64,000 nucleotides of DNA from contig NC_135240.1 in the NCBI RefSeq assembly GCF_947623445.1, positions 8,184,001 to 8,248,000 of the forward strand, written 5' to 3'. The position numbers were made by a program, and so were the translations under genes. The stretch comes from Clavelina lepadiformis (lineage: Eukaryota > Chordata > Ascidiacea > Aplousobranchia > Clavelinidae). This document shows, piece after piece, positions 1,336 through 64,000 of this stretch; position 1 is the first letter of the stretch; each line of letters begins with the position of its first letter. Under the pieces are notes generated by a model that saw nothing but the letters and a program-made list of their open reading frames with translations, made no database searches and was not told the DNA's origin.

Positions 1336-3619
1336 AGACACCGTGGTTAATATAACTTTTCCACCTCCACCAAACTATGATCCTCCCCCAATTCGTGATA
1401 AAACAAACAACAGCAGCGGTGCTTCTTTGGATGAAGAAGATTATGACCCACCTTCTGGGAAGGAAGACAGTCCAGACCAGGTGAGCGAGTTTAGTTGTTG
1501 TTGGGTAATCATTTGCTATATTACAATTTTTCGCACTTTGAACTGTTAGTGTATAATATTCTTTTATTGTGACCATGAAGTTTGTAAAGTATTTGAACTG
1601 GACAACAGACCGTAATTTAGGGGTTCCATATACCGGTACCTACATACATATATGAATAACAAAATGTGACATGGCAAAATCAATTTTAAGGCTTTGTTAA
1701 TATACGGGAAGCTGTTTATTAGCTCAGTGTGTTCAAGCTTATCACTCGTTTTCTTTATATTTTCTGATAACACGTAACGTAGCAAAACTCTTTTTTGCGT
1801 TCACACAGGTATATGACAATGTAGCTGTAGAGAACAATGACGACATACCTGATTATGACGACATCCCGGAAGAGCTTGAAGAAGTTGTTGTTGCCCCTGG
1901 TTACACTGACGAAGCGACATTGCAGTATCCCACAGCCGTAGTGTTGCGACACCAGACGACACCATTGTACAGCCAAGTGGATAGAAAATCAAAAGCAAAA
2001 TCATCTGGGAGAGGTCAGTAGCCCGGAACTTTGAATTATTTGTCTTCATTAAAGATCTCCTTTTTCTGTTTTGTGGTAGACATTGGCCTGATATTATTCG
2101 CATTTCGGTATCTACTGTGATGTATAGATTGCCGTTTCATATAGCTTACGTGGTCCATGGTTACGCTGTTGTAGCTGCTTATGGTGTAACTGTGGTCATC
2201 TTTTTGTCGGGTTAGACATTGTCCTTCAGATGAACCACTTTAGTTCGAACAACGCAAAGGACATCGAAAATGACGAAAACGTTACCGAGGAAACAGCAGT
2301 GTTGGGTACGCGGGTAGTTGTTATAATTACTGATGTACTGTAATAAGCACACGACTCACTAAATAGTTAAGGTGTTAAAAGCTAGCAATTTAAAAAAGTT
2401 TGAGAAAAGATAGGCGTAGCATACTAGTACAGTGATCGCAGCTTTCAAGAATAATATTTTGAAATGATTTTGATCTATATCAGATACAGAAGATGCTCGG
2501 TACACAAATGAAAATCCTCCAATACCCGCACCTCGCCGCATCGAATCATTATCATCGGACGCAGAATGGAGTGACGACACAACTGATAACAAGTTTGTTA
2601 TGTAACGCTTACAGTAACGTCTTGGTATATAGTTTGTAGTCATTGTTTGAACATTCGAGGACTTCCTGAAGATGAAATTAAGATGGTTAGTCACACTTCT
2701 GACGTGCATTTAAATAATTGCATCATTGTAGGTCTTTAGCTGGTGAAAAGGCCAAAGGAGTCACCTTTTCTTCCGAGCCTACGTCAGGATCAACACAATC
2801 GATCATAGACGCAACACAAAGCGAGTACATGCGAAATAAAACGGGTACGATTTGGAGAGATACATAAAAAGTTTGATTAAACCCAGGACTTTTCAACTCA
2901 CAGACGTTGGTTGAATCGTCCTTGCTTGAAACGTTCTTGGATTGGATCGACCTGAAACCATATAGTCTAAATCGATGTTTTCTAATGCAAAAACTATGTT
3001 AAGTAAATTTTTTGTTTACATTTTAGCGAAAGGCCGAGACAGGGAGTGGTATTGCTATTTGGCCATGCTTATCGCCATTGTTTTCCTCATCGGTCTTTTT
3101 ATTTTCATGTTTATCTCTTACATCTATGTTGGTAAGCAAATCGTGTTGGCAAGCCCTGATATATATTTACTGTTTGCAATACTGAACACTCAACCAGTAT
3201 AGAATGCAGTTGCTGTTTCCCATCCAGTATAGTTTCGCTGATATCTTTTATAATTTGTGTTTTAAACGGTTTTTATTCAGCTAAATGTGCTTAAAAGTTA
3301 ACTGTATTTGTACTTTGTAATGAAGGCTATAGCAAACAGTTACGTAATGTATAAGCATTGCCGATGATACGTTTCACCTTATACGGGAAATCATCTTTAT
3401 ATAAAAGCAACGGAAATAGGATACACATAGTGACATATATTGTTTTAACTAAACACTTTATTCTAGGAACTGTCAGCCAAAATGCGCTTAATGAAGCTTT
3501 GAACCGTGGTTCTGGTAAGTACATTATATAGATATTGTGACAATGTAGGCTATACTGTTGTACAATGTATTTGAACTTTTTAGAAACTAAACAGTAATTT
3601 CTTTTCTTTAGGGAGATGA
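1336..3619 (+). CDS. Single-pass membrane protein, acidic tyrosine-rich tail (5' partial)
   Basis: I do not recognise this gene. Eight exons join in frame: about 1336-1480, 1809-2013, 2216-2305, 2484-2592, 2732-2844, 3027-3131, 3467-3514 and 3612-3619 (stop TGA), all with GT-AG borders and compatible phases. The first visible exon has an acceptor and no ATG, so the start lies upstream. The long N-terminal part is acidic and proline-rich (FPPPPNYDPPP) and carries tyrosine motifs of SH2-ligand type (VYDNV, DYDDI, LYSQV) and a proline motif IPAPRR. Exon 6 encodes a basic stretch (KGRDRE) and then about 27 hydrophobic residues, a transmembrane helix; only about 20 residues follow. The positive charges before the helix suggest the acidic part is cytosolic, making it a type II or tail-anchored-like protein. 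A signalling adaptor role is an inference. Reading through the exon-4 donor at 2592 would end the protein within four codons, before the membrane helix. Confidence 0.75.
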
Positions 3620-3865: not shown

Positions 3866-4042
3866 TGTATAAAATGGCTTTATAAAGACAAATGCTTTGC
3901 AATATCGGGCGCGTTTTTCGACAGACCAACTGCGAGAATGAAAGCAATGGTTTATATATTTATAAGCGTAAGAAAATGCATTGACAAGTGGACAGTCTCA
4001 AGGAACGAGGTAGTTGCAGAAAGGTTTGCCGAAATCTCGCGG

Positions 4043-7000
4043 TTAAAAGATTCGATGCATTTTTCGTAACAAACAAATAGCGATGATTATAAGAAGAGCA
4101 AGAAAAGAAAGAAAAATCATGCCAATTACGGCAAGCCAGCTAATTTCCAGGTAACGATGCTTTTTATTCACTTCTGTATCCCCATCCTCCAGGGAGCGAT
4201 CTCCAGACTCCTCATCCGTTATTCCGTCAATGATGGAAGCATCATCGTCTAAGTAAATGGGTCCGACTGTCAAAGTTGCGTTATTTTTTGATGAATTCTT
4301 CTGAGCGTCAAGGGAACGTCTTCGTCGAGACCGGCTTGGACATTTCGTCTGGAAATTTTGACTTAGGCTAATAATATCTTTCGCCATAGCTGGCAATTTG
4401 AATAAAATTAATACAAAGACGTACATAACAGAATAAAGGTATCGAACAAGGCTGTGATAATGATTTATTGCTGCCTAAATCACAACGATTCTTGTAACTG
4501 TCTTACTATGCATGATTGATGATCAGTAAAGCAAACAGTGACATCACAGTGCAGATAGACGGCTGAGCTGTTTGAGAATCGAAAAACTCTAGAACTCCAA
4601 TAGAAGTGAGACAAGTTTTTGGGATTTTCGATTTGAACAAAGTCAGTCACAGGACAGCTAGAAAATAGACGAAGTTTTCTCATAGAGCAAACGATCAATT
4701 TAGTGCAAAATCTTTATTTTTTTGATAATCAAGATTCAAGACGATTGAACTATAACAGTAACACTTACTAGTATTTCAGAAAGAAAAACTGATGATGTTT
4801 TGCATCTTCTACGGGAGTCGCCCAACATTTTTCTACTTCAATTACAGCAGTCGGTGGACCTTCTAACAAACGCACGCCTACGTACAGCCTAAAAGCATAA
4901 ATGCCCGTGACTAAAATATTACACAACTAGAGAATTTTCGAAATGGGTGTTAAGCAAATACGTAAAGAACAGAATATAAGCTTCGTCATGTACAGAAATG
5001 GTATATATAGGACATATTGTAACTTACGTTTCATGCATCTTCAGTCGCGGTGGTCTAGTACGCAATTCACTGAATGAAGGTCCTTTGAACAAAAACATTC
5101 CGACAGAAAATTCTCCGAAACCAGTAGCGGAGACATCAGTGTCAATTACTATTCGACGAACTTGACTACAAAACGTGAACTTTTAAGACTAAGTTAGTAA
5201 GATTCGTCCACTTTCGTTGGCATGGTATGGAATCACAATGTATACCCCTTGGACTGAGAAAAAGTCTTTGCACGACTTAAACTCGGCGATAATTCCTCAT
5301 CTCTCGAGCACCGGTTACCAAGCTTGACTTTGCGCAATTTCCGATTGATACACACATTTTTATTTGGTTTATCGATTTTTTGATGCTATGTTGCCCAAAC
5401 TTGAAACTGTTCGTCATACCACGGAACAGAAGCAAGCGACCTCATAACACCCAAGTTTATTACAAGGGTGGCGGCACTGTTAGGTATCGAACATAGACGA
5501 CATTATAGCATGCCAAGCGCTCTAACCACTCGGCTACCGAGCCGGAAAATATGTTAAAATAATGTAACATGATTAACACATTAGAACATAAAATGCACTT
5601 AACTTTGGTTCTATAGGAGCACCGTGCTGTAGCATTATACACTGTGCGTTCAAGTTACTAATTAAGTTATCCCGATTGTTTAATATCCAGCCTTTCCTTT
5701 TTACCTTATGGTTGGTAAATAGTGAAACTCTTTATCAATGCTTTCCTTCGTAAGTGAAACTAAGTAGGCTAAAGGGTACGCGCAATCAAATGGCAGGACG
5801 TAGTTATAGTACTGGCCAACTCTCACGTTAGGGAAGGCGGGATCAGCCAGATCTGACGTCACAAGGCTATTTCCATAAATCACGTCGGTAGCAGTCTGCA
5901 AAGCATATTACGAACTGAACAAATTTTCTTTTCAGTGACAAAAGTTATGCATAAAATTAGTTTGAACTAAAATTGCTGTACGATGGCACATGGCAAGACT
6001 ACTAATATTACTGCAGCCTTCACAAACATATAGATTTGCTACGTAACGCCTGTATAGGCTAATAAAGTGAGTTTACTGTCCACCGACAAATATCAATATA
6101 TCATACATATTTTCATTGGCCATAAACCTACTAAATTCATGGTGCTGCCGCAGGTCATGAAACCCTTGGTCGTGCAAAGAATTTTGTGGTCATCTGCGGC
6201 TGTCGGATCTGATACAAGGTCATCATCACAGCTTTCGCTGAAGCTCAAAGAAGTAAAATTGGCATAATGTATTCCCCTGTCTTGATAAAACGTTCGGGAT
6301 ATAGCGACGCACATGTACTCAGGTAGGCACATGACCTTAACTAAAAAAGAGTTAAGTAGTAAATGACAGGCTTTTATTGTGGTAAAAACCCTCTTTTCAA
6401 TACGTTCAACAGCAGGGATGGGCCAAATCGAAAAAGATTTTGATTGGTAAGAATACGAATACTATATAACATAAATTCTAATATTCGTGCAATTTTCCAT
6501 CCAGTCTGTGAGTTTTTTGCTCAATCAAAATAGCAGAAGAGCAAGGAAATCGTGGTTCAACTTTTCAACTTGCTGGCGACTGAAAGAAATCAACCTGCTT
6601 TTCGCTTTACGAGATTATTAGAAATAGATCCACTCTTAACCATTCCAATATTTTCAAGATCGATCATACAACTGAAAACGTGTTAGTGCTGTTTTCAGAC
6701 TTCAAGCAAAATAAAAGGTTAGGCCAAAATGTGAACACAAGATTCGGAATTCTGAGAATAACAAAAAGAGAGTGACTACTTCATCCTAAGTACTGTAAGC
6801 TATTAGGTTACGCAGCCCATCAGGTGACTATTTCTCCGAAAGTAGGTCATCCAGCCGATAGTTAAAGATACGGCGGTTAGATTAGAAGAATGGATATGCA
6901 AAAGTCGATTTAAGCTAACGATTTAAGGCTTAGGTTAGGTTTAAATTACTCTGTTATAACATTTAAGTAAAGTTAACTAGAAACCATGAAAAATAGCTTC

Positions 7001-8114
7001 AAATCTACGATTGTTTCCAATCAAATAGTGACAGCCTTTCGTATTTCGCTAAATCAAAATAGCAGACGAGCAAAGAAATCATGCTTGAAATTATCAGCTT
7101 GTTTAAGCTGAAATAAATCGAGCTGCTTTTCGCTTGTACGAAATTATTGATTAAAAATTGGTATAGAGTAGACCAGGGCTTCCCAAACTTTTTTGCTCGC
7201 GACCCCTTTCAAACTTCTGAAGTTTTCCGCGACCCTTCACGTTTAAATTGATAAGCAGTGCGAAATATACATTAGTCATTAGTGACATTTATTGAGATGC
7301 AAAGACTGAATTCAAGCCACCAGTACTCAAAGCCTACTTACTACTTTACACATATGTAGGCTACTGCAAACAAAAAAGCACACACATTTATTCAGTGTGA
7401 TTGGTCCGACTGCTTTCTGCTACAAAGCAAGTCCAGCCGTGGCTCAATATCTGTTAATGCTGGTCTCAAGGCGGTTTCTATGTTTATTAGGCTCGAAGTA
7501 TATTTTGTTTTGATTGTATTTTGTACTTCGTGTAAAATTGGTATACGCTCTGCGACCCCTGAAGTTCGTTACGCGACCCCTTGCGGGGTCGCGACCCCCA
7601 GTTTGGGAAGCCCTGGAGTAGACCAATTCCTAACCAGTCCAATATGTTCCAGATCGACCATACAACTGCAAACTTGTAACTACTGAAAACGTTTTGTTGC
7701 TTATTTTTTGACTTTATGCAAACCAAAAGTTTAGGCCAGAATGTGTTCGCAAGATTCAGGATTCATTGGAATAACAAAAATGGTTGACATTTGTATTCCT
7801 GTTCGATTCGGCACATCCCTATGTTCAACAAAGTTAGCATGTAAAGTATTCAACATTTTTTTTACAAAATTAACTGTTGAGTGCAAGCAAGCGGTAAAAA
7901 GTTCCCACGACAACTACACTATATGGTTGCACTTTACATGATAAACGTTTCCAACAATCTCACCCCCTTCGGTAAGCAACTCATACTCCGTAGAATTATC
8001 TTCAGCCAAAAACGAGCCAATCTGAAGCTGAATTTCTTCTTTAGACGTTGCTACAACTTCTTCAACGGCCAAACGTAAAAGTACAAACACAGCTAAGCTC
8101 TTTCCCGTCAACAT
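4043..8114 (-). CDS. Zona pellucida (ZP) domain membrane protein, 421 aa
   Basis: Seven exons on the minus strand: 8114-7964, 6340-6132, 5895-5705, 5165-5028, 4888-4769, 4657-4507 and 4348-4043; phases agree throughout. Residues 1-20 form a signal peptide. The ZP module follows: ZP-N begins near residue 51 (VMCLPEYMCVAI), the FDC-Y motif is in exon 3, and ZP-C carries the diagnostic CWATP (about 251-255), YCPV and VYLHCDVTVC. A dibasic processing site SRSRRRR lies at about 325-331, then an acidic propeptide with NSS and NAT glycosylation sites, one membrane helix near 389-414 and a short basic tail. In this family, cleavage at the dibasic site releases the ectodomain to polymerise into filaments of egg coats or epithelial matrices. 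There is no EGF or other extra domain. Introns 1 and 3 hold nested hAT elements and a SINE. Egg-coat or epithelial use cannot be decided from sequence. Confidence 0.93.
5262..5545 (-). repeat. tRNA-derived SINE, minus orientation
   Basis: Read on the minus strand, the head at 5545 has a pol III A box (GGTAGCCGAGTGGTTAGAGC) and a B box (ATGTTCGATACC), a tRNA Ser/Leu-like head. The body and tail, with TCTCGAG and GCACGACTTAAAC blocks, recur at 19729-20015 and in part at 28548-28590. It sits in intron 3 of the ZP gene. Confidence 0.65.
6412..7822. mobile_element. hAT-like non-autonomous element with internal duplication
   Basis: The ends are inverted repeats: CAGGGATGGGCCAAATCGAA on the left and TTCGATTCGGCACATCCCT on the right. 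Perfect 8-bp target duplications, gttcaaca, lie at 6404-6411 and 7823-7830. Inside, a segment of roughly 300 bases is present twice in direct orientation (about 6500-6745, and about 7020-7173 continued at 7616-7757). The second copy is split by another hAT element. No open reading frame of note. It lies in intron 1 of the ZP gene. Confidence 0.8.
7174..7615. mobile_element. hAT MITE nested in another hAT element
   Basis: Inverted repeats CAGGGCTTCCCAAACT and AGTTTGGGAAGCCCTG bound 442 bp, with perfect 8-bp target duplications gagtagac at 7166-7173 and 7616-7623. The ends are rich in CGCGACCCC blocks. It inserted into the second internal copy of the surrounding 6412-7822 element and is therefore younger than it. 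Confidence 0.9.
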
Positions 8115-8180: not shown

Positions 8181-10627
8181 AAAATTGCCTGGGAGGCGTT
8201 TAAAACGACTGGCCGCTGCCCTGGTTTTCTGCAGTCTACATGGCGCTATAATTACCGTTTTTTAAATAGTGTATTTACACATATACAGCGTTGTGTTTAT
8301 AGAGTGATTTACAGCGTGGTCTGCCAATGGCCGGTGATACACACTGACAATAACACTCGAGCGACCGCGTTAAGCGGGTTTAAAGCTCGTCACAAAAAGA
8401 CCTTTCATATCATTGACAAATGCTACTCCTTTGTTACTGGTCATGCGTTAAATAGGCGTTCTATGTTCCTGTTCGAAGCAAAAATCTATTATGTCATTAA
8501 CATTACAATCTTTATAGGTCGAATTTAATTTGCTGGCATAAAATGTTTAGAAATTGGAAGGACGGTTGGAAAAATCACATGTCTAAAAGCGAAATGAGTA
8601 AAACAAATCCTCTTAAATACACATGACGTCAAAAACCAATAAAAAAGACGACCATGAAATAGAGCTTCATTGAAGAGGAGCACGTCAAGCTGATGTACAT
8701 TGTCAAACAATCACACGAAACAAGCATTGTGACATGCCATGAAAAAGTAAAACCTCAAATAACGACGTCATGCCTGACGTAATAATTACAGTTGTTGCGT
8801 TGACGATCGTTGCACAAAGAAGCTTACGTAACGTGAGAAAATATTTTATTCTCTCTTTCAGAGTTTACTTAACTTGTCTGTTGAAACCTTTGATCAGTTT
8901 GCCTTAAAACAGTGAAACTTTGGTGTAACCACCGAGTACAACTGACATACAAGCACATGTACTAATTTATAATGGAATGGCTGGAGGTAATGCGAAGACT
9001 GACGTAAAGGCGCATTTGCAAGCGCAAATTTTCCGTGTATAAACGGTACAAAATGATATTCCACAATCGTAACTTAAATACATGATGATTTCAAAGAAAG
9101 CTCATGACATGCTGATATAATATTTTTGCGATTTAATATCGGTGACAAAAATAAACCCTTGAGTATTCGAAGGTGTTAAAATAAGAAATTGACAAAGTCA
9201 AAAACATTCCTTCCAAGACAGACGGGTACCAAGTTCGAGCCGCAAAGTTTGTAAGACAGTTGGAGGGTCAATAAATAATACGAATGACACGCGCCAAATA
9301 TTACAGACAACTTGAGAGATATACGTAAACATGATGGGGAAATTATGCAACGTCGTATCGAGGCGCACGTAATTTTTACTGTCACACGGCAATTAAGGAA
9401 CGTCATAATCATCGTAGAAAATCAATATAATTGCAGGTCGAAATTATTCGTTAACCGTGACTGCTTTCAGAAATAGAAAATGTACCAGCAATATCATTTC
9501 AACACATGGCTGGATTTCACAACAATTAATAAATTATTATGTTCAAACTCACAATTCGATCGGAAACTCTGCAGAAAAATTCGATTAAATAGCAATGGAG
9601 TGTGCGAGTGCATGAAGACATTAGAAGGGTTTGGTGGATAAATGAAGTTATATTTAGTCGTTACTTAAAACTACATATGACAAAAAGTGGAAAAAATAAT
9701 GCAAAACCACAACAGTACTACAGAAATATTCTGGAGGGGCTTTAATTTCAATCGGTATAGCATGCATACGAAATTGTTTTTTATGCAAAACACACTTTAA
9801 ATTATTCATTGACTTTTCAGAAGCAATTCTAACAGTGACAGCTAAAACTTCATGGACGGCAAAGTGAACAAAACCTATTTAAAAGCAGCCTGCAACGTTT
9901 TTGTCTGACACGTTTTACACCATAGCCTATTGCTTGGGAATGAGGTGGACATACGGTTTTCTAATCAAGTCAACAACTCGACTAATTAATCCATTGGATT
10001 AAAATTCAATCGATCAGCTGATCGATCCACCGACTCAATGATTCAATAATTGTTACAGGTACAGTACAGTAAGTACAGTACAACTACAGGCCTACCCGGA
10101 TATATTAGTTGATACCCAAGCGGATTAAGCGATACACTAAAACAACTCATTTCGGTAACGTCTACAACCCCCTCAACCCTCCGCAAGCCCTCCTGGTTGC
10201 GGGTCTTCTAAAATCTTCCATATCAGTTTCCAAATGCCCATACTTTACCCCAGGAAATCTCCAGTGAAAACACTATTACCCTCACGGTCTCACCTCAAAG
10301 CAACGCTGGGAGTTTAAAAAACGTAAAGGAAGAAAGAGCCAAAAAATATAACCGGAAATCATTCCAGTGAAAAAGTACGACACAAGAGCGTTGCTTATAT
10401 TGCGCAGTAAGCCGTTGATTATTCTAGTATTCGAAAACATTCCATTTAACATTCCGTTCTTTATGTATTGCCTTCAATCTGATTAAATAGCGCATGCTAG
10501 CGAGAAAATAAGTTGGTCCAACATGGCAAAGGGAATTAATTAGTTGATCAAACGTGGAAGTTACTTCACAATTTAACAAGAATGCTTGAACGATGGAAGC
10601 CAATAAAAAAGAAAAGAGGAAAGACGA
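8181..10627. other. Intergenic spacer between NAPRT 3' end and ZP gene
   Basis: No gene recognised. It holds short chance frames only. Near 9983-10026 are two adjacent near-perfect palindromes, one of them ATCGATCAGCTGATCGAT at 10009-10026. The NAPRT 3' UTR must occupy the right end, but no canonical AATAAA is obvious on the minus strand close to the stop. Confidence 0.5.
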
Positions 10628-27413: not shown

Positions 27414-27494
27414 GCCGCTATAGCTCAGTGGTAGAGCACTGGTGTCGTAAACCAGCCTAACCAGGGGACGTAAGTTCAAACCTCACTGGTGGCA
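27414..27494 (+). pseudogene. tRNA-Thr pseudogene
   Basis: It matches the Thr genes of the right-hand array (GCCGCTATAGCTCAGTGGTA... CCTCACTGGTGGCA) but the anticodon arm is disrupted: TGTCGTAA replaces TCTCGTAA and an extra CCTAACCAG follows the AACCAG, a short tandem duplication. The flanks do not match the array spacers, so this is a dispersed copy. Confidence 0.8.
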
Positions 27495-46931: not shown

Positions 46932-48014
46932 CTAGGAAGTACTAGATCCAAACACAACAGGATGATAAACACCGGAACCAACTCGATTATGAAATGTTTG
47001 GCCTCCAAGGGCAGTAGAACCATCACTAGATACATACAAGCGAAGGTTATCACCATCATTGCCATTGGTATTAGGTGTAAAGTCTTGACTTTCCATTAAT
47101 TTATTAACAACAGCGTCTGCGCTAACCCTAGTTTCTCCCATTCGATTTTGGGAGATATTTACAGTCGATGCATGAGGTGGTGGCGGTCGTGGAGGAGGAG
47201 GCATTCTTCCTGGAGTCAATGGAAGTTTTTGTGGCGATTTTAAAATGTTCATGCTTCCTATTGCAGAGTCTTGTTCCGTGATTGAATCCATTGAAGTGCT
47301 CATTTGACTGATATTGCTCGGAGTTCTTGAGTGTTGTGAACCATAATCAGATCGTTTTGATTGTTGACTAACAGAACTGGGATTTCGTACATGACTTGGC
47401 TCAAATGAGTCTGTTACAGTCCTGTTTTTCTTGTGCGCTGTTGCTCTTGGTAAACTTCCGAATCCACTACTATCGCTGTCAAGTCCTGGTTGTATGTCCC
47501 CTCTGCCATCGGGAAGCTGCAAAGCTGATTCATACACTGTAGGAACTTTAAAAAGTGGATCGCCAGATAACAACTGCATGCCTATAACAATTTTTAAAAT
47601 GGAATTGTCTAATCTGATTTTGTCATCATAACCTTCAAGAAGACAATGTCTTGATGTCTGTCCGCCGCCGGCAAACTCAGCCAAATTTAAATCCACAAAA
47701 CCAATCTTTGTTGCACTGCGGCCACCTTTTACTTCTTTACGAACTGAAATCCGAGCGATGCAAGGATCTAAAATGCCAGTGAGGGGATCAGCTGACATCT
47801 TGCAGGTGTACTCGAATCTTTGTCTCCAACAGACACAGTTATCTTTGACGTTTTCTCTTGCAGTGCTTTCAACGTATGCCCCACCATTACGGAGTCTTAT
47901 TTTACTGTACAGCACTCCAGTTACGAATGGAACAGCATTCAATTCATCAATGAATAAACTTATTTGAAATTTAAACTTCTTTTTTGTCATTACCAGCGGT
48001 TTAAAAAAGCTCAT
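46932..48014 (-). CDS. EEIG1: EEIG/FAM102 family protein with NT-type C2 domain, single exon
   Basis: The family (EEIG1/FAM102A, FAM102B) binds membranes or partners through an N-terminal NT-C2 domain; EEIG1 is oestrogen-induced and acts in RANK signalling in osteoclasts. One uninterrupted exon gives 360 aa. The NT-C2 domain spans about residues 9-155: KKKFKFQ, FVTGVLYSKIRL, NCVCWRQRFEYTCKMSADP, LDPCIARISVRKEVKGG, GFVDLNLAEFAG and LLSGDPLFK. A Ser-rich linker (SQQSKRSDYGSQHSR) and a proline run (PPPPRPPPP) follow, then the conserved end with ADAVVNKLMESQDFT, NLRLYVSSDGS and VGSGVYHPVV. The ATG at 48014 starts MSFFKP, matching MAFL of relatives. Vertebrate genes have many introns; this one has none in the coding part. 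An acceptor CTTTTTTTTACAG lies about 60 bases before the ATG. Confidence 0.93.
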   Translation of the reverse strand: MSFFKPLVMTKKKFKFQISLFIDELNAVPFVTGVLYSKIRLRNGGAYVESTARENVKDNCVCWRQRFEYTCKMSADPLTGILDPCIARISVRKEVKGGRSATKIGFVDLNLAEFAGGGQTSRHCLLEGYDDKIRLDNSILKIVIGMQLLSGDPLFKVPTVYESALQLPDGRGDIQPGLDSDSSGFGSLPRATAHKKNRTVTDSFEPSHVRNPSSVSQQSKRSDYGSQHSRTPSNISQMSTSMDSITEQDSAIGSMNILKSPQKLPLTPGRMPPPPRPPPPHASTVNISQNRMGETRVSADAVVNKLMESQDFTPNTNGNDGDNLRLYVSSDGSTALGGQTFHNRVGSGVYHPVVFGSSTS

Positions 48015-50682
48015 GACAGTTATGAGCAATATCACCAAGTATTATATACATAAGAGATCTCTTGAGCAAGATTCTGTAAAAAAAAGATATTGTTTATTAT
48101 TTAGTTAATGCCTATTTCAAGCTTGTAGACTAGCTTAACTTTCATCAACCTATTTCTCTTTTCTTACTTCGGTAAACAGCAGAGCAATGGTTGGTAAAAT
48201 AGACACTTAATCTACCGCGTTATCCTATACAGCCGTTTAAGCCAGTTCATTTTCCGATTCTGATGAAGGCAGACATCAAGATGAAACAGACGCTGTCTTG
48301 AATAAACTTTGTGTACCTGATTGCATCTGTACCTACAGGATCAAGTAGCTAGTGTACCAAAGTAATCATGTACAAATTTTGTCAAAAAATCCCTAGCTTA
48401 TTTAAATATTATGCATAAGTTTTGTTTTTAAAGGTTGTATGTTAAACCCAAATTTTCTTATCAATTTATACCAAACTTCGACCCTCTACATAAAGAATTG
48501 TTTAGTTCTGATCCATTAAACTCACCAACCGCATCGAAAGCTAAATTTCAAGCCCCAGAAAATTTCAATGCCTAGGCCTACATGCTGCAATATCTCAGGA
48601 AAGAAATGTCCCCTCTGCCATCGGGAAGTTGCAAAGCTGATTCATACACTGTAGGAACTTAGAGGGCCATTTTCCACATACTTGCGCATTAATTCCTCCT
48701 CTAAGCCTATGTTTCTTTCTTTAAGAAACAACTTTTTGTAAATTTAGTTTTAACAACTTTTTACTGGTTGCATGCACTACTGGAAAGTCTGAAAGTACAA
48801 CAGCCTTTGACAAGATATCGTGTGTGCAATGACGCAAATTTTGGCGTGATGGCATTCATTGAAGTCTCAATTCTTTGTTTATTTTGTAAAAAATCGGTGT
48901 AAAAACAAAAATCCTTAGAGTACACATTGAGGAATATCGTGCGTTCGGGTGCCACACTTTTCCGCCATGGAAAGTCAGGTGATGCAACTGTAAAATGGAC
49001 CCCTGCTAGCCTATACTGCTATACCTGCCCAAATTGCAATTAATATTTCATTATAACCTTGGGTCCTTGGTATGATCATAATAGGCCTACTACAAGATAT
49101 GTCATGATTTTGTTGCACTGGCCTTTGCCCTTGACCGGATAAACTTAACGACAGAAATCTTACGTCGGTCTAATAGCCTATAGCCTACGTTACTTGTAAA
49201 GGAATAACAGAAGCCTGTTATGCCAAGCTGCTGACAAATGCGACTGGGTACCATTTACCATCCTTAGCCGAAGTCCAAAAACTGAGAAAATTAAGAACCC
49301 AAAACATGCTCTTTGTCGCTCGCATACCATCGACTGGCTGACTGACTAACCACTAACGTATGCCTAGATTGCCTAGAAGCAATTTAGCTTCAAAGCCGCA
49401 GCTTTTTTCTCTTTGCTTTGTGGTTGGTGCTGACATTTTACCAGGTTTGGCGGAAAAAAATGTGTGCTGCCTCATAGCGGATTAAAATTCATGAAACCAA
49501 AACTGAAACTGTATTAAGTGGAAAGGTGTGGTATAATTTTGTAATTTAATTTTTTTTCAAGTAAATTAAGAACAAAAGAGAATTTAATGCTAACTGATTA
49601 CTAACAGTTACGTTTTATCACGTTTTTTTTTTCTTTTATCAGTCGCACCTGTGAAGGCGGAGTCTGATTTAAAAGAGCGGGTGCTGCAACCTGCCATTTT
49701 TCTGATATTGCGCCCTGCTATTGTTTGCTGCTGAGTGACTGACAGGTGCTGCTGTTGGTGACGTGAGCTATAACAGCTTAGTTTTCAAGTAGAGTGAATA
49801 ATTGATGTGGATGTTTTTCAAAGAAAATGTAGGCCTACATTGTTTTTTTTAACATGATAGATTTAAAGATTAGTTGTATGGTCGAGGAAAGCGAAGTTAT
49901 ATTAATATAACTTAAACTAAATAGCTCACCTTTCAATTTTTTTGAGAAAGTGGCAGTTATAGTTATAAATTATATATACGGACATGAAAGACACTAAAAT
50001 GCGCTGAACAATGAAAAACATAGACCTACTTTTAACAAAAATGTGTAAAAAAATTTAAATTTGCTAAAGTTGAGCTGCATTTTAGATACAAAGTTCCCGG
50101 AATTTAATGGCCTTATCTCATTTCGTTTTTGTACAATTGATTTTTTTTCCAAGGTACCTGGGTCTGTTTCTGCTTGGCCTGGCACCTTGCATTAAGATAG
50201 GGGAACCATTGTGAAGTTTTGCACGACGTAGGCCTATACTGCATTGCGCTTAGTTAGGACAATATAACTATGTGATTTATTGTATTATTGCTGTTATTCT
50301 TATGTTAAGTATGGTTTTATTTTGATTTATTGTTACATTTTACAGTACACTTGATGAAGCGAAAAATATAAAGTTAACCTTAAGAGTGCCAAACTATATC
50401 CTGTTTCCTACTTTACTTTGTGACTTATGACTGCGTTCATTTGATTTCAATGAAAACATAATTACGTCAATTTTCAACCTATAAACAAATGGTTCTGTCT
50501 ATTCGCTTCTTCAGGGATTTTATCAAGCACTTTACAAGAACCCGGCGAAGGTAGGCTGCTTATTACGGTATTTTGCATCAGGCTAGTAATTTGCAGTAAG
50601 CAAGCTTACGAGGCGCAGTGAAAAAGACAACAAAAGCATTCCGGGGAATTACATTACTATATCGCTTTTCCAATACCATATT
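48015..50682. other. Intergenic region between EEIG and MRGBP
   Basis: Divergent promoters of the EEIG gene (-) and MRGBP (+) are expected here. It holds a 56-bp second copy of EEIG coding sequence at 48605-48660 and a block near 49650-49770 (CCTGCTATTGTT, GTTGGTGACGT) that recalls 20900-21000. No gene recognised. Confidence 0.5.
48605..48660 (-). repeat. Short duplicate of EEIG coding sequence
   Basis: About 56 bases starting ATGTCCCCTCTGCCATCGGG on the plus strand repeat 47496-47551 inside the EEIG exon with one mismatch (AAGTTGC for AAGCTGC), in the same orientation. The surrounding sequence is unrelated to the gene. Confidence 0.85.
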
Positions 50683-51819: not shown

Positions 51820-53725
51820 TCATGGCTGCACAGAAATATTTTTGTTTTGTTTAACATTAACATTTTCTGTATACAACCCTAGCAAAGGTTCAAATAATTT
51901 TGCTAAAAATTCATCATCAACAGAATGTCCCATAGGTGCAACTTTAGAATTAATAGATATTTGGTACTTTTTCTTCAAAGCCTGCTTTGCAGCGTCTGTT
52001 TCAGCTAGTGGGATAGATTCACCACCTGATTCTGAAAGAAACCTCTTTCCCGAGAAAAGTGCAACAAAAAACACTGGAGTGACAGTATTTATGCCAGATT
52101 GACGAACAAGCCGTGCTTCAGGAAGGGGCTGTGATTGCTTCTTTAACTCTTCAACGAGCAGAGACATTGGGTCATTAGGTTTCCATATGTCATGCAAAAT
52201 GTCTTTTCCCACTAGTTGTGGAATAACAAAATCCAGTAAAAATCTTCCTGCAGCAACTGGTCCTCCTGACCTATTAATCGCTTCCACACTTGCCAGAAAT
52301 GAACAGCACAAAACTTCATCACTTGGTGGAAAGTTTACACATTGCAGCAAATCCTACATGTGTAGAAGATCAACAGATTATGAAGTACTTCTCCTAAAGC
52401 TTATTACGGTTCTTCTTCAATTATCCGGTCTATTTGGGACAATGTTTTTTGATATTTGAGCTGATAAGCAAATAAACCAAGATAATTGAGTTCTTAAAAC
52501 AACACTTTTACGTTTCACATAGGTTTAAGATACGGTTATAGGATTTAGTTTTGAACAATGAACTGGAAGTACAGTGACATTACTGTGAACAGTCTATATC
52601 AGACAAACTGTATAGCTATAACGGCTGGATGCTTCCCAGTTTGTTTTACTGTTATTGTTATTTCAAGCGTTTATCAAGCGACCGGATAATCGAAGAAGCA
52701 CCTACTATTTACCTCATAACCAAGGTTTCGTGCCAAATACGCAATGTGGGATTCATCTAAAAGAAAGCTTTTCACTGCTTGCTTCCCTGCAGACGGCAGT
52801 TTCGGAAATGCGGTGCTGATATAATGAGACACAAATTCATCTGCAAATTTCCTGCCACAATCTTGCAAGTCAGAGTAATCAGAGAGACTCTCTGCATTGT
52901 CATCTTGGTCTGGCAAAGGTTCAGTGAATGCATCTTTCAATAATTGCTCTGAGCAATTTAAATGAAGGCGACATCTTAAAAAATATTTCAGCATATCAAG
53001 GAACAGTATTCAGTTTTGACAGATTTTTAACAAATGCTGTCTTACAAGAAGCTAATAAGTTATATGTACTGAGATGCTATTACAGGGGCGGGCAACTTTT
53101 TTGGTCGGCGGGCCTGATATGAGAAAATAAACTACTTGGCGGGCCGGATTCCTGAATCGATACATTAATCGTGTATTTATCCACCTATGCAAGGAATAAA
53201 TTGTATTTAATGTAAACTTTAAGTTTTAAGCATAGAGACCAAAAACAGTATTTAATGAATTTATTAACAAATAATGTACTTCAATAGCTGCTGAAGTCCA
53301 AACTGAACTGCTAAACTGACTGCGGGCCGCTCAAAATCCCGTCGCGGGCTGGACCCGGCCCGCGGGCCGTATGTTGCCCACCCCTGTGCTATTAAATCAT
53401 ATGCTATCAAATCACAACTGTTGTACAGTTACGATTGATACATCACTCACTGAAAGGCTGACAACTCAGCTTTATAATTCCAACACCGTAAGGTAGATCT
53501 TGGTTTTGGAGGATCAGGACCTTCAATTTCCTTTTTCCTTTTCATACTTAATGCCCAAACTCTTTTCCAACGTAAAGGTCTACCTTCATTTTCATCTGCA
53601 GTCCGAATTGCAGAGTTACCCACATTTGTTGAATAGCTCAAAGCAGGTGATTTCTTGTTTAGCCAATAGATAGCAGATGCAACCCTTTTAGGACAATCCC
53701 TCACGATCCTTGTTGTCAGAAGCAT
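51820..53725 (-). CDS. MRPL44: Mitochondrial large ribosomal subunit protein mL44
   Basis: mL44 is an RNase III-like, catalytically inert subunit of the mitochondrial 39S ribosome near the exit tunnel. Three exons in phase: 53725-53451, 52974-52713 and 52353-51820, giving 356 aa (human 332). The N terminus MLLTTRIVRDCPKRVASAIYW is a plausible mitochondrial presequence. RPLRWKRVW and PPKPRSTLRCWNYKAELSAF precede the RNase III-like fold (HIAYLARNLGYE, VEAINRSGGP). The C-terminal double-stranded-RNA-binding-like part has DPMSLLVEELKKQSQ, EARLVRQSGINTVTPVFFV and AETDAAKQALKKKY. The gene is convergent with MRGBP; about 270 bases separate their stops. A hAT MITE occupies intron 1. Confidence 0.93.
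53083..53386. mobile_element. hAT MITE in MRPL44 intron 1, 304 bp
   Basis: Ends CAGGGGCGGGCAAC and GTTGCCCACCCCTG are inverted repeats, with perfect 8-bp duplications tgctatta at 53075-53082 and 53387-53394. Subterminal GGCGGGCC and GGCCCGCGGGCC blocks are shared in style with the element at 36041. Confidence 0.93.
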
Positions 53726-60540: not shown

Positions 60541-60612
60541 GCCGCTATAGCTCAGTGGTAGAGCACTGGTCTCGTAAACCAGGGGTCGTGAGTTCAAACC
60601 TCACTGGTGGCA
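60541..60612 (+). tRNA. tRNA-Thr (CGT)
   Basis: The 72-base cloverleaf is complete: acceptor GCCGCTA / TGGTGGC, D arm GCTC-GAGC, anticodon stem CTGGT / ACCAG with loop CTCGTAA (anticodon CGT at 60573-60575), T arm GTGAG / CTCAC, discriminator A. A TTTTT terminator follows. It is the leftmost copy; acceptor position 6 is T instead of C. Confidence 0.93.
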
Positions 60613-61641: not shown

Positions 61642-61689
61642 TTGGTCTCGTAAACCAGGGGTCGTGAGTTCAAACCTCACTGGTGGCAG
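61642..61689 (+). pseudogene. 3' half of a tRNA-Thr gene
   Basis: The sequence from TTGGTCTCGTAAACCAG to the terminal TGGTGGCAG matches the array gene perfectly, but the acceptor 5' strand and D arm are missing. The spacer after it is normal. Confidence 0.85.
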
Positions 61690-61909
61690 CTTTTAAGCGC
61701 ATGGGCAACATTATGGGTTTGGTATGAAAAAGCTGTTGTTTTTAGGCAGAGGTTTCTTACAGAAACAAAGAGTGGACAAAGTTGCTTTGACAAAAAATAT
61801 TGCTATTAATACAAACTTAGTTTAGGACAAAGTTTATTCCAAAGCACCAACTTTGATACCGGACTTGAAAGCAGACAATTTTCATAGACATAAAAGCAAA
61901 CAAAACCAA

Positions 61910-61981
61910 GCCGCCATAGCTCAGTTGTAGAGCACTGGTCTCGTAAACCAGGGGTCGTGAGTTCAAATCTCACTGGTGGCA
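61910..61981 (+). tRNA. tRNA-Thr (CGT)
   Basis: Full cloverleaf with acceptor GCCGCCA / TGGTGGC and anticodon CGT at 61942-61944. The D loop reads AGTTGTA instead of AGTGGTA. It is the first copy of the regular 293-base array and is followed by a TTTT terminator. Confidence 0.93.
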
Positions 61982-62202
61982 GCTTTTAAGCGTATGGGCA
62001 ACATTATGGGTTCGGTTTCCAAAAGCTGTTGTTCTTAGGCAAGGGTTTCTTACAGAAACAGTAAGTGGACAAAGTTGCTTTGACAAAAAATATTGCTATT
62101 AATACGAACTTAGTTTAGGACAAAGTTCATTCCAAAGCACCAACTTTGATACCGGACTTGAAAGCAGACAATTTTCATAGACATAAAAGCAAAGAAAACC
62201 AA

Positions 62203-62274
62203 GCCGCCATAGCTCAGTGGTAGAGCACTGGTCTCGTAAACCAGGGGTCGTGAGTTCAAATCTCACTGGTGGCA
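62203..62274 (+). tRNA. tRNA-Thr (CGT)
   Basis: Consensus array copy; all stems pair. The T loop variant is TTCAAAT. Anticodon CGT at 62235-62237. TTTT terminator follows. Confidence 0.95.
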
Positions 62275-62494
62275 GCTTTTAAGCGCATGGGCAACATTAT
62301 GGTTTGGTTTCCAAAAGCTGTTGTTTTTAGGCAGATGTTTCTTACAGAAACAAAGACTGGACAAAGTTGCTTTGACATAAAATATTGCTATTAATACGAA
62401 CTTAGTTTAGGACAAAGTTTATTCCAAAGCACCAACTTTGATACCGGACTTGAAAGTAGACAATTTTCATAGACATAAAAGCAAACAAAATCAA

Positions 62495-62566
62495 GCCGCC
62501 ATAGCTCAGTGGTAGAGCACTGGTCTCGTAAACCAGGGGTCGTGAGTTCAAATCTCACTGGTGGCA
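62495..62566 (+). tRNA. tRNA-Thr (CGT)
   Basis: Identical by eye to the copy at 62203. Anticodon CGT at 62527-62529; TTTT terminator. Confidence 0.95.
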
Positions 62567-62787
62567 GCTTTTAAGCGTATGGGCAACATTATGGGTTTGG
62601 TTTCCAAAAGCTGTTGTTCTTAGGCAAGGGTTTCTTACAGAAACAGAGAGTGGACAAAGTTGCTTTGACAAAAAATATTGCTATTAATACGAACTTAGTT
62701 TAGGACAAAGTTCATTCCAAATCACCAACTTTGATACCGGACTTGAAAGCAGACAATTTTCATAGACATAAAAGCAAACAAAACCAA

Positions 62788-62859
62788 GCCGTCATAGCTC
62801 AGTGGTAGAGCACTGGTCTCGTAAACCAGGGGTCGTGAGTTCAAACCTCACTGGTGGCA
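62788..62859 (+). tRNA. tRNA-Thr (CGT)
   Basis: The acceptor reads GCCGTCA, giving a T-G wobble at position 5; the rest is consensus with T loop TTCAAAC. Anticodon CGT at 62820-62822. Confidence 0.93.
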
Positions 62860-63080
62860 GCTTTTAAGCGTACGGGCAACATTATGGGTTTGGTATGAAA
62901 AAGCTGTTGTTTTTAGGCAGAGGTTTCTTACAGAAACAAAGAGTGGACAAAGTTGCTTTGACATAAAATATTGCTATTAATACAAACTTAGTTTAGAACA
63001 AAGTTTATTGCAAAGCACCAATTTTGATACCGGACTTGAAAGCAGACAATTTTCATAGACATAAAAGCAAACAAAACCAA

Positions 63081-63152
63081 GCCGCCATAGCTCAGTGGTA
63101 GAGCACTGGTCTCTTAAACCAGGGGTCGTGAGTTCAAACCTCACTGGTGGCA
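63081..63152 (+). tRNA. tRNA with anticodon CTT on a Thr body
   Basis: The sequence equals the array tRNA-Thr except for one base in the anticodon: the loop CTCTTAA gives anticodon CTT (63113-63115), which reads Lys codon AAG. All stems, the discriminator A and the terminator are intact. Automated callers would label it Lys or Thr/Lys mismatch. The charged amino acid cannot be told from sequence. Confidence 0.9.
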
Positions 63153-63374
63153 GCTTTTAAGCGCATGGGCAACATTAAGGGTTCGGTATCCAAATACTGT
63201 TGCTTTTATGGCAAGGGTTTCTTACAGAAACAGAGAGTGGACAAAGTTGCTTTGACATAAAATATTGCTATTAATACGAACTTAGTTTAGGACAAAGTTC
63301 ATTCCAAAACACCAACTTTGATACCGGACTTGAAAGCAGACAATTTTCATAGACATAAAAGCAAACAAAACCAA

Positions 63375-63446
63375 GCCGCCATAGCTCAGTGGTAGAGCAC
63401 TGGTCTCTTAAACCAGGGGTCGTGAGTTCAAACCTCACTGGTGGCA
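63375..63446 (+). tRNA. tRNA with anticodon CTT on a Thr body (second copy)
   Basis: Identical to the copy at 63081, including the CTT anticodon (63407-63409). The 294-base unit that contains it, with its spacer, is also identical by eye to the preceding one, so the pair arose by a very recent tandem duplication, or is an assembly duplication. Confidence 0.9.
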
Positions 63447-63668
63447 GCTTTTAAGCGCATGGGCAACATTAAGGGTTCGGTATCCAAATACTGTTGCTTT
63501 TATGGCAAGGGTTTCTTACAGAAACAGAGAGTGGACAAAGTTGCTTTGACATAAAATATTGCTATTAATACGAACTTAGTTTAGGACAAAGTTCATTCCA
63601 AAACACCAACTTTGATACCGGACTTGAAAGCAGACAATTTTCATAGACATAAAAGCAAACAAAACCAA

Positions 63669-63740
63669 GCCGCCATAGCTCAGTGGTAGAGCACTGGTCT
63701 CGTAAACCAGGGGTCGTGAGTTCAAATCTCACTAATGGCA
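63669..63740 (+). tRNA. tRNA-Thr (CGT) with weakened acceptor stem
   Basis: Anticodon CGT at 63701-63703 is intact, but the 3' acceptor strand is TAATGGC instead of TGGTGGC, leaving two C-A mismatches in the acceptor stem. It is probably poorly functional or an early pseudogene. Confidence 0.75.
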
Positions 63741-63960
63741 GCTTTTAAGCGTATGGGCAACATTATGGTTTGGTATGAAAAAGCTGTTGTTTTTAGGCAG
63801 AGGTTTCTTACAGAAACAAAGAGTGGACAAAGTTGCTTTGACATAAAATATTGCTATTAATACAAACTTAGTTTAAGACAAAGTTTATTCCAAAGCACCA
63901 ACTTTGATACCGGACTTGAAAGCAGACAATTTTCGTAGACATAAAAGCAAACAAAACCAA

Positions 63961-64000
63961 GCCGCCATAGCTCAGTGGTAGAGCACTGGTCTCGTAAACC
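63961..64000 (+). tRNA. tRNA-Thr (CGT), cut by the window end
   Basis: The first 40 bases are consensus through the anticodon loop CTCGTAA. The T arm and 3' end lie outside the window. Confidence 0.85.

Follow-up and report, generated by a model that had tools for sequence, protein, structure and literature searches.

Five tRNA genes with a threonine body and a lysine anticodon in a tandem tRNA-Thr(CGT) array of Clavelina lepadiformis

In a tandem array of tRNA-Thr(CGT) genes in Clavelina lepadiformis, five of the 21 regular units carry the lysine anticodon CTT on a threonine body, with the middle anticodon base changed from G to T (G35T). We regard the following account as the best one, with a probability of about 0.6. 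The change G35T would have occurred once, in a unit of the C60 haplotype, and unequal exchange together with segment duplication would have taken it to 5 of the 21 units. The CTT type would then have persisted without evident selection either way. If transcribed, the tRNA would read AAG and, going by published identity rules, would carry mainly lysine; the product would add little, and redundantly, to the large set of ordinary tRNA-Lys(CTT). Overall, the finding is most likely a drift event, and a harmless one.

The window is the whole stretch of 64,000 nucleotides that was analysed (C1:8184001-8248000, in an assembly of 209 Mb and 95 contigs). The array outruns the window end and extends to about position 7842 (window coordinate 67842) of the overlapping interval L009 (C1:8244001-8253999), in which a coordinate equals the window coordinate minus 60000. 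ARAGORN found 25 tRNA genes in L009, five of them with CTT, at 3081, 3375, 4839, 5718 and 7184. The first two lie in the window (Table 1), where the sequence-only reading had already placed them. Both were confirmed by ARAGORN and by the Rfam tRNA model (73.6 bits each). Its count of two was correct as far as it went, but the array as a whole, including its part beyond the window end, contains five, as found by ARAGORN and unit comparison. Throughout, the regular array refers to the 21 units at L009 1910-7771. Copies at L009 541, about 850, 1422, 8390 and 9820, which are outside the regular array or incomplete, are not part of the 21-unit counts, nor are a partial copy near 1650 and a minus-strand Met-type copy at 8182-8253. 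When the 209-Mb assembly was searched with an exact 33-base pattern spanning the CTT anticodon, the five CTT genes were the only matches in the sequence searched.

Table 1. Features of the tRNA-Thr(CGT) array in the window (window coordinates).
Feature	Position	Strand	Details and basis
CGT gene just ahead of the regular array, outside the 21 units	60541..60612	+	sequence
tRNA-Thr(CGT) tandem array, part in the window	61643..64000	+	unit about 293 bases: gene 72, spacer about 221
CGT copy, G18T in D loop	61910..61981	+	sequence
Intact CGT copy, T60 haplotype	62203..62274	+	sequence
Intact CGT copy, T60 haplotype	62495..62566	+	sequence
CGT copy, C5T (wobble pair kept) and C60	62788..62859	+	sequence
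tRNA, Thr body with CTT anticodon, copy 1	63081..63152	+	anticodon 63113-63115; ARAGORN, Rfam
G-to-T change at base 35 (middle of the anticodon), copy 1	63114..63114	+	sequence
TTTT, probable Pol III terminator, copy 1	63155..63158	+	sequence
tRNA, Thr body with CTT anticodon, copy 2	63375..63446	+	anticodon 63407-63409; ARAGORN, Rfam
G-to-T change at base 35 (middle of the anticodon), copy 2	63408..63408	+	sequence
TTTT, probable Pol III terminator, copy 2	63449-63452	+	sequence
CGT neighbour, broken acceptor pairs C5-A68 and C6-A67	63669..63740	+	66.4 bits (Rfam)

Both CTT genes in the window were labelled tRNA-Lys(CTT) by ARAGORN, from the anticodon, and the other three are identical to them in sequence. 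Every stem is paired with no broken pair, G18 and G19 are retained, and a TTTT run, which we take to serve as the Pol III terminator, starts two bases past each gene. The body is identical to one Thr-TGT gene of the genome at 65 of 72 positions and to one of its Lys-CTT genes at 53 of 73. Five CGT units of the array differ from the CTT gene by base 35 alone; they stand at L009 3961, 4546, 5425, 6305 and 6891, all past the window end, and no complete CGT copy within the window is separated from CTT by that base alone. The pair G4-U69 is present in 20 of the 21 units, including all five CTT units, and is replaced by G4-C69 in unit 7771. Outside the array, a Thr-AGT gene (L039) likewise has G4-U69, as read from its sequence.

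The CTT gene equals the CGT haplotype with C60 plus G35T, and we infer that CGT is ancestral to CTT. By gene haplotype, the 21 units comprise six CGT with T60, five CTT with C60, five CGT with C60, two with G67A and G68A, and the singletons G18T, C5T with C60, and T62G with T69C. Position 60 is T in 10 and C in 6 of the 16 CGT units, and is C in all CTT genes. The middle base had been described as the sole change from the array consensus; this is true against the C60 type of CGT unit, but not against the T60 type. Similarly, the statement that the genes show no decay applies to the stems, G18, G19 and TTTT of the CTT copies and does not extend to the array, where 4 of the 16 CGT units are damaged: L009 1910 (G18T, at a base normally invariant in tRNA), 3669 and 6012 (both with two acceptor pairs broken), and 7771 (with one T-stem pair broken). 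In the window, the Rfam score of the CTT genes is lower than that of two CGT copies (75.3 bits) and higher than those of the remaining CGT copies. As a separate observation, the gene that ARAGORN called tRNA-Met(CAT) at L009 8182-8253 (C1:8252182-8252253, minus strand) is a damaged copy of the array's Thr body, in which two pairs are broken and seven bases differ from the T60 CGT gene.

The spacers around the CTT genes were compared across the array. Several haplotypes were seen among the upstream spacers, and the CTT genes follow three kinds: one is common to 4839, 5718 and 7184, another precedes 3081 and differs at two positions from those of 5132 and 6598, and the third, at 3375, is identical to the upstream spacer of the CGT unit 3669 (window 63669). 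Downstream, the spacers of four of the five CTT genes are of the 3375 kind (0, 0, 1 and 5 differences), and that of 4839 is of the 5132 kind. Since differing spacers stand upstream of identical CTT genes, the gene itself would have been moved by exchange. Larger blocks recur as well. The segment L009 3375-4910, with two CTT genes inside, has a second copy at 5718-7255 (99.5% identity, 1538 bp aligned); the stretches 4546-4910, 5425-5789 and 6891-7255 show no difference along 365 bp, each with a CTT gene at its end; and 1643-5496 matches 3987-7842 at an offset of eight units (97.4% over 3858 aligned bases). A single mutation that unequal exchange and segment duplication then spread would account for these spacer kinds and recurring blocks, which a lone base error would not. 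That the five copies arose independently was ruled out on parsimony, given the identical genes and the duplicated blocks. The sequences, flanks and blocks were observed directly; the single origin, the order of events proposed above and neutrality are inferences.

Is the array, and the CTT type in it, under selection? Variable sites make up 8 of 72 gene positions and 37 of 222 spacer positions in the 21 units (Fisher p = 0.35), which suggests that the array is under little or weak constraint. Damaged units number 0 of 5 for CTT versus 4 of 16 for CGT (p = 0.53), and the CTT haplotype count of five is similar to the counts of 6 and 5 for the two main CGT haplotypes; the five CTT copies are not independent, so both comparisons have low power. 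Selection for the CTT type is thus unsupported by either copy number or damage. Selection may still have kept the CTT genes, which these data neither demonstrate nor exclude. When the eight variable gene sites were placed at random, the probability of hitting at least one of the three anticodon bases was 0.30, and therefore the anticodon position of the change is in itself unsurprising.

The weak constraint across the array and the damaged neighbours bear on an alternative that we consider unlikely, in which the CTT units are silent or their product unstable, and the units are passengers in a satellite-like array. Inactivity of many arrayed copies has been proposed for the tRNA arrays of Entamoeba (PMC2652664). 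On the other hand, the stems of the CTT genes are intact and each gene is followed by TTTT, and the window pair scores above all but two of the CGT copies there. Our preferred account, in which the genes spread without evident selection and any transcript is charged mainly with lysine, shares with this alternative the weak constraint.

We then considered the supply of ordinary tRNA-Lys(CTT). A 33-base Lys pattern matched 173 places, and among the 100 matches listed there were 78 with CTT (70 with at most one mismatch, 8 with two), 21 with TTT and one with ATT. Ordinary Lys(CTT) genes therefore number at least 78 as counted by pattern, four of which were read as whole genes, and 69 of the 78 lie in an array on C4 (counted by hand). 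The five CTT genes on a Thr body are at most about 6% of the genes with a CTT anticodon (5 of 83). With at least 78 ordinary genes by pattern, there is no evident need for a new Lys(CTT) gene, and compensation for a missing tRNA-Lys(CTT) was rejected. A separate, guessed Lys-loop pattern matched 69 places, and ARAGORN found no tRNA at its eight loci. Redundancy probably hides the change and allows CTT to persist.

As for the amino acid, three synthetases (LysRS, ThrRS and AlaRS) could in principle each have a claim on the product, judging from its gene. The seven-base anticodon loop CTCTTAA is the loop of the genome's tRNA-Lys(CTT) genes that were read. The discriminator is not of the Lys type: it is A73 in the CTT genes and G73 in all four ordinary Lys-CTT genes read (L077-L080). 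Human LysRS tolerates changes at position 73. The E. coli enzyme uses A73 (PMC9976931). In human tRNA-Asp and initiator tRNA-Met, transplanting the UUU anticodon suffices for Lys identity, these cited transplants being UUU and not CUU (PMC9976931). A shift from Asn to Lys by anticodon change alone has been described, and mammalian Lys identity is cited as anticodon-dependent (PMC3923123). Overall, published identity rules favour Lys charging of a CTT tRNA, which would be mainly with lysine because animal LysRS depends chiefly on the anticodon. Against a simple switch to Lys stand A73, G4-U69 and the finding that U35 did not prevent Thr charging of a tRNA-Thr in cells (PMC7337962). The sequence-only reading had listed a Lys tRNA, an uncharged tRNA and Thr at AAG codons; these are the right kind of alternatives, but Ala charging through G4-U69 was overlooked.

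It is improbable, in our assessment, that the CTT tRNA is transcribed and keeps substantial Thr charging, putting some Thr at AAG that is tolerated through dilution by Lys tRNA. Base 35 aside, the tRNA has the Thr body of this organism throughout, including at A73 and in the acceptor stem. Furthermore, a human tRNA-Thr(G4:U69) given the amber anticodon CUA, and hence U35, inserted Thr in 14 of 14 peptides and no Ala (PMC7337962). Taken strictly, the earlier claim that eukaryotic ThrRS relies on base 35 was thus too strong. Nevertheless, LysRS should compete strongly for U35 and U36, judging from PMC9976931, and the amber case is no direct parallel, as base 36 was changed too and the anticodon was not that of Lys (PMC7337962).

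Eukaryotic AlaRS, blind to the anticodon, can put Ala on tRNA-Thr with G4-U69 (PMC9976931, PMC7302879, PMC7337962, PMC5802732), and this Ala is cleared by ThrRS and ATD (PMC7302879, PMC5802732, PMC7337962). ATD is also present in choanoflagellates and a few other protists (PMC7302879). In the present genome, four stretches match the family PF02580 and were read as two genes. On C7, the frame has 169 residues, and among solved structures it matches 5xaq best (E 8.7e-46), an entry entitled 'Probable D-tyrosyl-tRNA(Tyr) deacylase 2', which we take to be mouse ATD. The 5xaq chain has the published ATD motifs PQATL and TNGPYTH, versus PQGCL and TDGPYMH in the C7 protein. This predicted ATD-like protein shares the published ATD signatures (PMC7302879) only in part. 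The gene on C6 has several exons and the DTD motif NDGPVT (by eye). The CTT genes thus have what marks a mischargeable tRNA-Thr, with G4-U69 in a Thr body and an ATD-like gene in the genome. On these grounds, AlaRS might charge part of the CTT tRNA through G4-U69 and bring Ala to AAG unless ATD or ThrRS clears it, and we rate this as very doubtful. The ATD-like gene itself should act irrespective of the anticodon. Human Thr-CGU(G4:U69) is mischarged less than Thr-AGU(G4:U69) (PMC7337962), and the amber G4:U69 tRNA gave Thr only, which therefore disfavours a large Ala share. A further scenario, which also strikes us as improbable, has the three enzymes share the tRNA, LysRS by CUU, AlaRS by G4-U69 and ThrRS by the body. 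The editing by which ThrRS normally removes Ala from this body might be weakened by the new anticodon, and Ala or Thr would then reach AAG codons of an animal at a low level that is inherited. If it were true, Ala and Thr at AAG would be restrained only by ATD and dilution.

Finally, an assembly or consensus error has hardly any probability: tandem arrays are hard to assemble, and three copies end identical 365-bp stretches, which makes the copy number uncertain, but the same T stands in five copies that follow at least three different upstream spacers and all belong to the C60 haplotype, so that an error at base 35 is unlikely and the worry voiced earlier about the consensus is largely answered.

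Seen by their sequence, the CTT genes are an alloacceptor anticodon shift, a known kind of change: they join a Thr body to a Lys anticodon, their ancestor gene is identifiable, and their structure is stable and not that of a pseudogene. Position 35 is the commonest site of such shifts (PMC3923123). As in the eukaryotic nuclear shifts of Rogers and Griffiths-Jones (2014, PMC3923123), one anticodon base and the codon read have changed and the body is intact; in their Drosophila Asn-to-Lys case, too, the anticodon alone was altered. Those shifts were found between orthologues by synteny, whereas ours is between units of one array, in five copies. A Thr-to-Lys pair is not mentioned in section 7 and the passages of PMC3923123, tables aside. 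One anticodon change also shifted function in the E. coli tRNA-Arg that replaced tRNA-Thr (Saks et al. 1998, cited in PMC3923123) and in yeast anticodon switching (Yona et al. 2013, PMC3868979). By contrast, these switches met a need, a deleted tRNA (PMC3923123, PMC3868979), and here ordinary Lys(CTT) is abundant. With the tRNA-Thr(G4-U69) system and its editors ThrRS and ATD (PMC7302879, PMC5802732, PMC7337962), the genome has in common the G4-U69 body and genes of the ATD-like and DTD types. The passages of these three papers describe no natural Thr body that combines G4-U69 with a Lys anticodon, and the G4-U69 study of PMC7337962 used an engineered amber anticodon in place of a natural Lys one. 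Tandem tRNA genes are also known from Entamoeba, for which homogenisation by concerted evolution has been proposed (PMC2652664), and from the human repeat at 1q23.3 (PMC4041453). The Entamoeba survey reported no clear pseudogene copies (PMC2652664), unlike the damaged and anticodon-changed copies here. Our literature search on natural variants of the Thr-to-Lys type and mistranslation returned no matching paper, and we make no wider claim of absence.

The array suggests that tandem tRNA genes can let an identity-changing mutation persist and multiply without evident need, and such mutations would be raw material of tRNA identity change. The five CTT genes, one base from five sister units, also offer a natural experiment on anticodon versus acceptor stem (G4-U69) versus editing by ThrRS and ATD.

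The same kind of change occurs elsewhere in the genome, in line with the preferred account: two Thr(TGT) copies and two Lys(TTT) copies have become TAT. Thr bodies of the array type occur at 193 places with at most two mismatches. Exact-context searches found base 35 other than G in seven Thr bodies, namely the five CTT genes and two TAT genes at C3:4.88 Mb, and found no change of base 36 in Thr bodies; such patterns miss copies with further nearby changes, so the counts of anticodon changes are lower bounds. The two TAT genes on C3 (L081, C3:4882100-4882400; L082, C3:4884650-4884950) belong to a Thr(TGT) array and carry an Ile anticodon; those on C9 (L087, C9:5068800-5069100; L088, C9:5072350-5072650) belong to a Lys(TTT) array. 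In all four, as read from sequence, an altered base 71 breaks the second acceptor pair. A TTT neighbour on C9 (L089) has the same acceptor change as L087 and L088, and therefore the anticodon change there probably came on an already altered body. Of the three position-35 sets found by these searches, CTT alone is intact, and this difference from the damaged TAT copies of two other arrays weakly hints at function. One further Lys body (L091, C2:3882650-3882950) has the Asn anticodon ATT, with base 34 changed.

Large tandem tRNA arrays were seen at C4:20674865-20791185, C9:4936555-5170352, C6:6292764-6383949 and C1:17709226-17891243. As judged from the units read, they contain Val and Thr genes on C6, Thr-TGT on C1 and Lys-TTT on C9. 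The C4 array (20.67-20.79 Mb) is a multi-tRNA array with a unit of about 1.71 kb, and in its unit L077 the Lys-CTT gene is accompanied by Asn, Cys and two Leu genes. Of 18458 candidates in the whole-genome Rfam tRNA search, only 63 were scored, and almost all of these came from a single array; the search is not a full tRNA census.

Three further Thr(CGT) genes lie about 320 kb upstream of the array (C1:7925244-7926227; L022, L033), in both orientations; judged by eye, their flanks partly resemble the array spacer. In the window, a lone Thr(CGT)-like copy of 81 bases at 27414-27494 has extra bases around the anticodon arm, scores 53.3 bits and is probably a pseudogene. Two open frames were also noted on the minus strand of the window: one at 46932-48041 with an NT-C2 domain of the EEIG1/EHBP1 type (E 4.4e-26), and one at 51820-52353 with an MRPL44-type dsRNA-binding domain (E 1.2e-5, slightly under the curated cut-off).
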